A stretch of DNA of 64,000 bases from Adineta ricciae (taxonomy: Eukaryota > Rotifera > Eurotatoria > Adinetida > Adinetidae), in contig CAJNOJ010000288.1 of the NCBI GenBank assembly GCA_905250025.1, positions 1 through 64,000 of the forward strand, written 5' to 3'. Made by a program: the position numbers and the translations under genes. Positions within the stretch are counted from its first letter, which is position 1, and each line of letters begins with the position of its first letter. Below the pieces are notes generated by a model. It searched no databases. It was not told the origin of the DNA and saw nothing but the letters and a program-made list of their open reading frames with translations. Positions 34,680 to 64,000 of this stretch are shown one piece after another.

Positions 34680-34751
34680 TCCGCGGTAGTATAGTGGTTA
34701 GTATCCCCGCCTGTCACGCGGGAAACCGGGGTTCGATTCCCCGCCGCGGAG
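34680..34751 (+). tRNA. tRNA-Asp (anticodon GTC)
   Basis: 72 nt, full cloverleaf: acceptor TCCGCGG/CCGCGGA with discriminator G, A-box TAGTATAGTGGTTAGTA, anticodon arm CCCGC-CTGTCAC-GCGGG with GTC, B-box GGTTCGATTCC. No intron. A T6 run follows within 15 nt and can end RNA polymerase III transcription. Confidence 0.97.
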
Positions 34752-34877: not shown

Positions 34878-34949
34878 CTCCGCGGCGGGGAATCGAACCC
34901 CGGTTTCCCGCGTGACAGGCGGGGATACTAACCACTATACTACCGCGGA
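34878..34949 (-). tRNA. tRNA-Asp (anticodon GTC), inverted identical copy
   Basis: Exact reverse complement of 34680-34751, tail to tail with it across 126 bp. Flanks differ, but both genes have their own T-rich terminator, so both may be expressed. Confidence 0.97.
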
Positions 34950-59216: not shown

Positions 59217-59354
59217 TATATTGGACGGAACTTCAAAAAGAGGGTGTGGGTGTGGGTGTGAGGGTGAGGGTGGGTGAGGGTGTGGGTGTGGGGTGTGAGG
59301 GTGAGGGGTGGGTGAGGGTGAGGGTGTGTGAGGCAAAGTACCGTCCATAATAAG
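59217..59354. repeat. Telomere-like G-rich block inside imperfect inverted ends
   Basis: 59240-59333 is a 94-bp mixture of TGTGGG, TGAGGG and GGTGTGGG units with G on the plus strand. It is flanked by TTGGACGGAACTTC at the left and, on the opposite strand at the right, TATGGACGGTACTTTG, which suggests that the tract was captured by, or is part of, a small inverted-repeat element. Confidence 0.75.
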
Positions 59355-61876: not shown

Positions 61877-62350
61877 TGTGATAAGTGAAGAAAAATGAAG
61901 AATTTTTTCACATTTAAATATTAATATAGTGTAAATTACCTAAGTAATGACATCTCTGTTTTGCAATTACAAGAAGATAACGTCATACATGATAACAATG
62001 AAAACGAAAGATAAGAAAAACATCTTCATATTACGTATTTAACAATGTTTGTGAGGGTGTGGGTGCTGTGTTCAAAGTAAAGTAGTACCAACGGACGAAC
62101 AAGTATATATTTGTTTACATCTACATATACACACACGTCTCTTTAATATATTACAATATGAACCAAGAGAAACGAGAATTGCGTTTCAATCGATTTTATT
62201 ATAAAATCGTACAAAATAATCAACGTATCATTGACAATAATTTAGAAGTGTAATATATATAAGGAAAATAAACGAATTATTTCTATATAATTATTGTGTT
62301 TTTAGAACATCAATGACTTTCATCGAAGATTTATCGGATGAAATATTCTA
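61877..62350. other. Intergenic stretch with a short telomere-like patch
   Basis: TGTGAGGGTGTGGGTG at 62048-62063 is telomere-like. Otherwise AT-rich; probably the promoter of the MAM gene lies nearest 61877. Confidence 0.5.
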
Positions 62351-62363
62351 GGGTGAGGGTGTG
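62351..62363. repeat. Telomere-like tract next to hammerhead motif 1
   Basis: GGGTGAGGGTGTG on the plus strand; on the minus strand it directly follows hammerhead 1 by 9 nt and reads as the C-rich complement. Confidence 0.65.
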
Positions 62364-62372
62364 AGTATAGCT

Positions 62373-62417
62373 GCCACGACCATGATTTCGTCCCTGCTAG
62401 AGGACTCTTCAGGTGGC
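62373..62417 (-). ncRNA. Hammerhead ribozyme motif 1 (all core bases present)
   Basis: Minus strand, 45 nt: stem I GCCAC, core CUGAAGA, stem II GUCCU/GGGAC around CUAGCA, core GAAA, short stem III AUC/GGU with AU loop, cleavage triplet GUC, stem I GUGGC. All invariant bases are present, and each stem pairs. The very short stem III is the form described in Penelope-like retroelements. No reverse transcriptase gene is nearby. Cleavage is predicted just 5' of GUGGC. Confidence 0.85.
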
Positions 62418-62549
62418 TTCGATATAGTGCTTGTTCAAATGATTGCAAGAATCATAAACAAAGTACTAAGACCTGTCAAATTTCATCAGCAAATTTCAAA
62501 GAAATTTGAAGATAAGGTAGGTATCGTTATCGTTGTGGTGAGTATAGCT

Positions 62550-62594
62550 GCCACGATCATGATTTCGTCCATGCTAAAGGACTCGTCGGACGGC
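62550..62594 (-). ncRNA. Hammerhead ribozyme motif 2 (one core change)
   Basis: Copy of motif 1, 177 bp away. Same layout: GCCGU, CCGACGA, GUCC/GGAC, GAAA, AUC..GAU (perfect stem III), AUC, GUGGC. The second core base is C where U is required, so activity is doubtful. Stem I keeps pairing with two G-U wobbles. Confidence 0.75.
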
Positions 62595-62684
62595 TCAAGC
62601 AAATGTTTTAGTTTAGATGCGCATTAAAGTGGCAAACACATTATTGAGTTTTAGTCATTCAAGCTTTTTCATTTTTTACTTTGA

Positions 62685-62697
62685 AGGGTGAGGGTGA
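62685..62697. repeat. Telomere-like tract next to hammerhead motif 3
   Basis: AGGGTGAGGGTGA on the plus strand, about 22 bp beyond the 3' end of motif 3 as read on the minus strand. Confidence 0.6.
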
Positions 62698-62719
62698 GAA
62701 TCAAATGGAATTCCAAGCT

Positions 62720-62769
62720 ACTTACGACGCGTTTCGAACAGAGCTTATCCTGTTCATCATCAGGTAAGT
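62720..62769 (-). ncRNA. Hammerhead ribozyme motif 3 (different family from 1 and 2)
   Basis: Minus strand: stem I ACUUAC, core CUGAUGA, one extra U, stem II GAACAG/CUGUUC, GAAA, palindromic minimal stem III ACGCGU, cleavage triplet GUC, stem I GUAAGU. Stem I can extend through an internal loop with AUUCC/GGAAU. The extra U between core and stem II is unusual and may lower activity. Confidence 0.75.
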
Positions 62770-62939
62770 TCGGAATAGTTATTCTACATGATTAAATTCA
62801 CAATAACAAAAGTCAATCTAGAATAAGAGTCAACAAGAAAACTTGAAGACATTCAGTAATAGATAAATACTTAAGATCGAGAAGATAATATAATCGTAGA
62901 ATTTCCAAAGAGTGAGAATCAATTGGAATCCCAAGCTAC

Positions 62940-62990
62940 TTACGATCGCGATTTCGATTCTTGCTAACGGGATCGTCATCAGGCAAGTTG
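62940..62990 (-). ncRNA. Hammerhead ribozyme motif 4 (related to motif 3)
   Basis: Minus strand: ACUUGC, CUGAUGA, extra C, GAU/AUC with a long loop, GAAA, stem III AUCGCGAU, AUC, GUAAGU. Compared with motif 3, one stem I pair A-U becomes G-U, so pairing is kept although the sequence changed; the palindromic stem III is also kept with different bases. Confidence 0.7.
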
Positions 62991-63087
62991 GTACATCAGT
63001 GTTTCACATCCCTGAATTATCATATCAGAATAAAATGCCACAAGAGTCCAAAATGGAGTCCTAACGATATTGATCAAATCAGAGACC

Positions 63088-63240
63088 GACGGTATTGCAA
63101 AATTTTAATACCGTCTCGTACCGCATACCGTCTTCTTTAGTTCCATACCGTACCGTACCGTCTCGCCTGATAATTATCTGATACCGTACCGTACCGTTAC
63201 CGCACAGGTTCTGAGCATACCGTCTCGCGAAATACCGTAC
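63088..63240. repeat. Cluster of ATACCGTACCGT-type repeats with a hairpin
   Basis: About ten copies of TACCG/ACCGTC words in 150 bp. It begins with a hairpin at 63088-63115 (GACGGTATT, 10-nt loop, AATACCGTC). Possibly the subterminal part of a hAT-like or other DNA transposon; no coding region. Confidence 0.6.
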
Positions 63241-64000
63241 CGCCGACAAAAAATTTTCGAATTTTTTTCAGAGTGATTCTAACTTGTTCCCTTTCATATA
63301 TGTCATATAAGTTCCTTTTCCGAAGAATATCGATAGGAAAGTATTAATATACATAGACTTGTAATTATAAACATATGCGTAAAAAGTATTTCAAGAATGC
63401 ATGATATGATCCCACTGACACACAGTGTTGCGCAGCTTTACGAAAACCATCATCATCATAACAAAAGATTTTATATCTGTCTACATCTGTTGCACTATTA
63501 ATTGTTTTTATTTCTTTAGAATGAGCACTAAGAAATCAGACAGTTTTGGAGTGACTACATAGAAAAATCAATTATTGGGAAGGTGATGAAGTCTCAGATA
63601 AAGACATGGTGGGATCGTTTTTTATCACTTAATTCAGTTATCTTTGTTGAGAGATATGTTGCTGTTTGAAACTTATGAATATTGTTAAGCAACTCTTGTG
63701 TGAAACAAAATTTAAAAACTTCTCTGAAACGTCAGTAATATTGAACTTCGTGGAAAAAAGCAAGTGAATGTTAACAATAGTTAGAATTACATGATTTTGA
63801 TCATTTGGATTATCGAGAATAATATGTGAAATCCTATTGCGCATTAAAAACTGTTGAATCATTAAACGATTATATTTTTAATCAGGCACGGAAAAGTAAC
63901 GGTCAAAAATGTAGATATATATACATATAAAATCTCAGATATTTTATTTATTTTCGTTTTAATTTCAAGTTTTAAATAAATTAACAATTTTAAACTAAGA
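63241..64000. other. AT-rich stretch to the window edge
   Basis: A 74-codon minus frame (63638-63862) is not convincing. No other structure seen. Confidence 0.45.

Follow-up and report, generated by a model that had tools for sequence, protein, structure and literature searches.

A hammerhead array with telomere-complement tails in Adineta ricciae is very likely the remnant of two telomere-attaching Penelope-like insertions

Terminons and Athena elements are telomere-associated, endonuclease (EN)-deficient Penelope-like elements (PLEs) of bdelloid rotifers (Gladyshev & Arkhipova 2007; Arkhipova et al. 2017; both as presented in PMC6431247). According to section 8 of that 2019 giant-transposon review, what joins the 3' end of a Terminon to the G-rich repeats of the telomere is a stretch of (ACACCC)n or (TCACCC)n located directly downstream of a hammerhead, a description that the section credits to Arkhipova 2017. 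Two other systems are relevant. For Poseidon PAc, a PLE of Anolis, the passages of Frangieh et al. 2024 (PMC11167929) that deal with insertion place the start of reverse transcription inside the RNA, at an AC-rich stem-loop downstream of the hammerhead, with a tail signature left in the genome; they also report that in vitro insertion persists when the hammerhead is mutated and that cutting of the RNA required the protein. The metazoan non-LTR retrozymes, in the parts of Cervera & de la Pena 2020 (PMC7229834) drawn on here, are short tandem repeats with type I hammerheads and lack a reverse transcriptase (RT). As for the ribozyme itself, a viroid hammerhead core with an extra nucleotide is already on record, at least in outline (De la Pena & Flores 2001).

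Here, we describe a locus of Adineta ricciae that compares most closely with the first of these systems. The window, by which we mean the whole 64-kb stretch of DNA analysed, carries an array of four type I hammerhead folds at 62,351-62,990 (minus strand), in the order HHR4-HHR3-HHR2-HHR1, with telomere-complement sequence after HHR1 and HHR3. We consider it very likely that this array is the remnant of two successive Athena/Terminon-kind, EN-deficient Penelope-like insertions at telomeres, 5' truncated and now well inside the contig. The features are as follows.

62686-63040, minus strand: putative insertion B (HHR4-spacer-HHR3-tail), aligned to contigs C739 and C664; 5' limit uncertain, at most about 63076
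62938-62988, minus strand: HHR4, 5' copy of dimer B; stems I6/II3/III3; core CUGAUGA with one extra C before stem II
62720-62769, minus strand: HHR3, 3' copy of dimer B; stems I6/II7/III2; core CUGAUGA with one extra U before stem II
62686-62698, minus strand: tail of dimer B, CTCACCCTCACCC, 21 nt beyond HHR3; junction with telomere-complement
62351-62685, minus strand: putative insertion A (HHR2-spacer-HHR1-tail), aligned to contigs C632 and C314; 5' part putative
62550-62594, minus strand: HHR2, 5' copy of dimer A; stems I5/II4/III3; core CCGACGA (U4 to C)
62373-62417, minus strand: HHR1, 3' copy of dimer A; intact core; Rfam RF00163, 26.4 bits
62351-62365, minus strand: tail of dimer A, CTCACACCCTCACCC, 7 nt beyond HHR1; junction with telomere-complement

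The CUGANGA...GAAA core, three stems and UH cleavage site of a type I hammerhead are found in the sequence, with core deviations in HHR2, HHR3 and HHR4. HHR1 has the layout GCCAC CUGAAGA stemII GAAA stemIII GUC^GUGGC (predicted cleavage site at ^); HHR2 is probably inactive, given the U4C change in its core; and HHR3, whose stem II is GAACAG/CUGUUC, matches the insertion-class pattern described below at C288:62732-62763, C288 (126,695 bases) being the contig whose first 64 kb form the window. The hammerhead starts are spaced 219, 175 and 177 nt apart. In a search of 1.4 kb, Rfam Hammerhead_1 (RF00163) scored HHR1 below its gathering score of 34 (E 7.8e-4) and did not list HHR2, HHR3 or HHR4; zero hammerheads reached the gathering threshold in the 64-kb window, and in the genome there were only two weak ones, the best at 27.1 bits, among the 73 of 18,299 candidates that were scored. 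Because Rfam sees the hammerheads of the array weakly or not at all, patterns of our own were needed. A relaxed finder (CYGANGA core, optional 1-nt insertion, stem I of at least 4, stem II of at least 3 and stem III of at least 2) gave four matches in the window, exactly HHR1 to HHR4, versus none in each of 20 first-order Markov windows, a comparison biased in the finder's favour since its relaxations were picked after the array had been seen; a stricter finder recovers HHR1 only. The folding energies of five hammerhead-tail RNAs were not clearly better than those of shuffles (z -0.91 to 0.97), and the predicted single-strand fold of HHR4 is not a hammerhead.

In both HHR1 and HHR3, the ribozyme is followed by CTCAC and then by telomere-complement repeats, which bears out what an earlier note on this DNA had claimed for these two motifs. 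The longer motif CACCC[AT]CACCC occurs seven times in the window, always on the minus strand and at four places (59248-59316, 62055, 62351 and 62686), versus 0 in 20 simulated windows. Can hammerheads and telomere repeats nevertheless be independent of each other, interstitial repeats being common in this genome and lying nearby by chance? Five-unit CACCCW arrays are indeed found at 158 places (28 in the reversed control), and two of the window tails, at 62055 and 59239-59332, have no adjoining hammerhead. Against such independence, which we regard as exceedingly improbable, stand the CTCAC boundary and its narrow offset in several families, together with the distribution of tails across the genome.

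That distribution comes from a search of the assembly (130,461,839 bases in 1033 contigs) with a pattern that is blind to stems I and III and to tails. The pattern, CTGATGAGN{14,17}CGAAA, matched 108 places versus 8 for the reversed control; 99 distinct matches were examined, a few of them at loci that had first come up through their resemblance to the array in the window, in a comparison that took in its tails. Stem II had at least 3 pairs in 74 of the 99, and 45 of these 74 were complete, with stems I and III and a cleavage site as well (shuffled flanks would give 0.65); among the 25 with a weaker stem II, 5 had stem I, stem III and the cleavage site (0.42 expected). Of the 45 complete hammerheads, 33 have an [AT]CACCC tail no more than 65 nt downstream, as against none of the 20 matches that lack both stem II and the rest (Fisher 8e-9); shuffled letters have such a tail in 4%. 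The earlier note had named untailed hammerheads elsewhere in the genome as grounds for abandoning the association, and 12 of the 45 are untailed by this measure; given the 33 that are tailed, they do not refute it, and 7 of the 12 keep CTCAC. CTCAC alone follows 39 of the 45 complete hammerheads versus 3 of the 20 incomplete matches, two of which (L078, L094) resemble damaged hammerheads. Where stem II was present and the rest absent (29 matches), 10 had a tail. In addition, L046, L074, L092 and L104 carry CTGATGAG...GAAACCGG motifs with stem II present and neither a tail nor a cleavage site at the usual place.

All three stems also covary. In an alignment of all 35 genome copies selected by stem II and junction, plus HHR1 and HHR2, 95.1% of cells in the three stems were paired, and 64 cells had changed on both sides versus 22.8 +/- 4.3 in shuffles (0 of 500 as high). 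By stem, paired cells amounted to 91% for stem I, 99% for stem II and 97% for stem III, pairing being a selection criterion for stem II and not for stems I and III; with partners shifted by 1-3 columns, the value was at most 49%. Of 60 distinct complete hammerheads, a set that takes in the loci found by similarity, 11 form an insertion class in which an extra nucleotide separates A9 from stem II; the stem II of this class is varied yet paired (GATCC/GGATC, GAACAG/CTGTTC, GAAAGG/CCTTTC, GAATGG/CCATTC). Within the same set of 60, CTCAC lies at most 62 nt from the cleavage site in 52 and [AT]CACCC in 43. The start of CTCAC or [AT]CACCC falls at 12-14 nt in 29 of the 45 complete hammerheads, with a second group at 34-35 nt (5 of 45). 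By contig class, 41 of the 45 complete hammerheads lie beyond C300 versus 6 of the 20 incomplete matches, the remaining 14 of which lie in C1-C300 (Fisher 1.2e-6); this bias toward small contigs fits a repeat-rich subtelomeric compartment, but it may be an assembly effect.

At several loci of the genome hammerheads come in pairs, separated by about 170-270 nt, and these pairs bear directly on how the array should be divided. In both dimers of the window and on C632, C314, C576 and C580, the 5' copy is followed by CTCAC(C) and unit sequence and the 3' copy by telomere-like letters, which on C580 amount only to CTCACCCG; C739 and C546 have the same dimer order in a 5'-shortened unit. The count leaves out C697, C714 and C722, where a gap or the edge of the contig cuts the sequence off. 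The exception to the rule is C705, where both copies are tailed. Within the window, CTCACC downstream of HHR2 (62542-62537) runs into ACAACG, and CTCAC downstream of HHR4 (62916-62912) runs into TCTTTG, which is unit sequence, the offset in each being that of tailed copies. Dimer B aligns to C739 at 71% over 256 nt and to C664 at 81% over 154 nt; dimer A aligns to the dimer of the RT-bearing C632 element at 69% over 259 nt and to C314 at 66% over 262 nt. Based on the dimer pattern and on these alignments, HHR2 and HHR4 are most readily understood as the internal (5') members of their dimers. On the best reading, the array consists of two insertions that have lost their 5' parts, each holding a hammerhead dimer in which the 3' copy alone has a tail; the tail of B abuts the 5' part of A. 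This reading replaces the four tandem units of the earlier note. Likewise, the idea that HHR2 and HHR4 keep the remnants of decayed tails was dropped, since CTCAC(C) plus unit sequence follows the 5' hammerheads of several relatives, in the form CTCACCACTG on C632, C314, C697 and C714.

The relatives also supply the enzyme. On C632, an RT frame (L120:2996-3940 with breaks; L012:211-633 with ARYIDDI), which by its motifs we take to be of Penelope type, is followed 1.5 kb on by a hammerhead dimer and (TCACCC)4. With 105 residues of this RT as the query, the genome gave 76 matches. None of the 76 is on C288, and no ORF of at least 150 aa was found at 62-73 kb, in agreement with the claim that the array has no RT gene. 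The assignment of the window copy therefore rests on its relatives, and because there is no RT in the same copy, we speak of a 5'-truncated remnant rather than of an element.

For comparison with the RT places, 63 hammerhead places were used: 46 were complete and 17 belonged to the insertion class, 6 of the latter (C285, C383, C430, C486, C668, C680) being known as matched letters only. For six distinct RT fragments, a hammerhead follows on the same strand at a distance of 1.2-1.9 kb, which gives nine pairings. When hammerheads up to 2.5 kb downstream and up to 2.8 kb upstream are counted, all 13 pairings are on the same strand and none on opposite strands; in 4 of the 13 the hammerhead is upstream of the RT, which we read as the end of a preceding element. 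In 20 further RT downstream regions, a CTCACCC-like tail occurs in 6 in sense and in 0 in antisense, a strand specificity that again speaks against hammerheads and repeats meeting by chance. Inspected by eye, 8 of the 20 (L123, L125, L126, L128, L130, L132, L137, L138) have a hammerhead, or what is left of one, with CTCAC or a near match to it next in line, with telomere letters absent before a gap in L130. Two more, L135 (C953) and L136 (C660), which are of one RT family, have motifs that resemble hammerheads, with a stem II that is long and AT-rich, but lack a telomere tail, and in ten no hammerhead was seen by eye, L140 among them having a tail alone. The C953 protein, which is 100% identical to an Adineta ricciae record, is an RT, matched by the NCBIfam models Drt2 (E 1.1e-7) and retron (3.9e-5), both far below those models' cut-offs, and its homologues bear PF00078; for the ORFs tried, Pfam-A gave no RT match and a PDB sequence search gave none. 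Pfam gave no GIY-YIG match in the 625-aa C953 RT ORF or in two C632 ORFs beyond the RT core. In total, the relatives in which a Penelope-type RT precedes this kind of hammerhead-tail end (C632 and the six fragments) uphold the proposal of a footprint left by EN-deficient, telomere-attaching PLEs of bdelloids; of the two coding capacities that had been suggested for the neighbours, RT was found and GIY-YIG was not, in the ORFs tested.

These data also bear on whether the array consists of non-autonomous, retrozyme-like units, that is, short hammerhead repeats in tandem that use circular RNAs to spread and depend on the RT of a PLE. PLE/Terminon RTs have been proposed as retrozyme mobilisers by the authors of PMC7761336, the array is RT-less, its hammerhead spacing falls within the 150-450 bp that the text consulted gives for animal repeats, and consecutive near-identical units do occur in this genome (C714, 99% over 141 nt; C722, 95% over 145 nt). 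However, the same kind of dimer ends the RT-bearing C632 element, A and B are of different families, and the units differ in sequence and vary in their 5' ends (a C546 unit begins only about 18 nt before its hammerhead), the latter as 5' truncation would lead one to expect; telomere tails, moreover, are absent from the retrozyme description so far as it was available. On balance, we think a retrozyme-like origin improbable and favour two 5'-truncated PLE insertions. A search for units beginning at the cleavage site gave 10 candidates, 2 of them convincing looking, which we offer as a lead only.

How much of the tail does the element itself bring? In a single family, the letters are identical through CTCAC and then diverge immediately (CCTCACCC, ACCCTCA, CCACACCC, ACACCCTCACACCC, CCATCATT), and the five-unit CACCCW arrays of the genome hold both TCACCC and ACACCC. 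Divergence right after CTCAC is expected if the run beyond it is the mixed telomere of the chromosome and the element gives only CTCAC(C). Judged from these letters, the element's own share seems to be about CTCAC(C), or 5-6 bases, with the remaining tail contributed by the chromosome's telomere. The suggestion that an RNA from this strand would end in telomere-complementary bases needs revision to that extent: the internal copies continue CTCAC(C) into unit sequence, and if the element adds only about CTCAC(C), priming may be internal on the RNA. We tentatively extend this idea, at somewhat less than even likelihood, to a scheme in which the tail would be mostly not element borne, the RNA would offer only CUCAC(C) and then its own sequence (ACTG at several loci), the overhang would prime internally on a tandem-hammerhead RNA, and the extra-nucleotide hammerhead class would mark part of the ends.

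We thus propose a mechanism in which each insertion would be the 3' end of an element, with two tandem hammerheads, a short linker ending in CTCAC and then telomere-complement repeats. A G-rich 3' overhang (...GGTGAG-3') would pair with CUCACC just 3' of the final hammerhead on the RNA of the element, and the element RT would extend the 3' end of the overhang into the hammerhead and further upstream until falling off. Telomere repeats would then be re-added, and the next element would land on them. We infer that insertion A came first, with its tail toward lower coordinates (the presumed centromere side), and that B then landed on the distal end of A. Since the tail is 3' of the ribozyme cleavage site, cutting by the last hammerhead would remove it. 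Either the last hammerhead would stay uncut while the RNA is in use, which is compatible with the Anolis result, or priming would take place inside a longer or circular RNA, which, from the arrangement of the copies, would appear to explain the internal copies and the dimers better. We do not claim a need for cleavage, given the in vitro insertion of the Anolis mutants.

In kind, this system is already described in print (PMC6431247), so that the "under-described system" of the earlier note is too strong a term. The likeness to Terminons and Athena lies in a hammerhead at the 3' end with (TCACCC)n/(ACACCC)n after it, the bdelloid host, the 5' truncation beside telomeric repeats and, in the relatives of the array that were tested, a Penelope-type RT without GIY-YIG. 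In contrast, the window copies are 3' ends only; measured against the description in PMC6431247, the dimers with their tail after the 3' copy, the CTCAC boundary and the recurrent one-nucleotide core insertion in part of the family appear to be features defined here. With Poseidon PAc the array would share an internal start downstream of the hammerhead, and it has a tail signature in the genome; PAc, as far as its description was consulted, has GIY-YIG, cuts AT-rich DNA and uses a start site not homologous to its target, whereas the junction letters here match telomere DNA and GIY-YIG was not found in the relatives tested. Retrozymes resemble the array in their type I hammerheads, short tandem repeats and lack of RT; they differ in that here a dimer ends an RT-bearing element, and telomere tails are not described in the consulted parts of PMC7229834. 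Taken together, our observations extend to Adineta ricciae the published rule that a hammerhead plus a telomere-matching stretch is the attaching end of bdelloid telomeric PLEs. Narrowing the element's contribution to about CTCAC(C) would turn the general idea of tail-overhang pairing into a testable primer-template junction, and it would link telomeric PLEs with the internal initiation seen in vitro for an EN-bearing PLE.

The position of the array, 62.4 kb into a 126.7-kb contig and hence mid-contig, counts against a telomeric reading. Could the units have attached elsewhere, the block having been moved here later via subtelomeric recombination or break repair? Subterminal chains may turn into internal islands (PMC6431247), and next to the array lies a dispersed element whose copies share an end near 63077. 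Conversely, the flank at 61890-62350 has no second copy in the genome, and nothing else matches the array better than 81% over 156 nt, so that no copied source is seen. Such a relocation is in our view rather unlikely, and it is compatible with the proposed origin of the units as telomeric PLE insertions.

Several further observations concern the surroundings of the array. The dispersed repeat at 63077-64000 and beyond has 29 other matches, the longest 96% over 933 nt, with variable 5' ends; many copies stop at the same point, near 63077-63080 when read in minus sense, where ACCGT repeats lie close by, and it looks like a 5'-truncated non-LTR element. On the other side, a further CACCCACACCCTCAC stretch without a hammerhead is found at 62051-62065 (minus strand); its flank, 61890-62350, is the one that is single copy in the genome search. 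Interstitial telomere-like repeats, G-rich on the plus strand, fill about 95 bp at 59239-59332; they have no adjoining hammerhead and are flanked by an approximate inverted repeat (ATTGGACGGAACTT / AAGTACCGTCCATAAT). The neighbours of the array include MAM-domain genes, and two tRNA genes of equal score, at 34680-34751 (plus strand) and 34878-34949 (minus strand), lie in opposite orientation about 130 bp apart.
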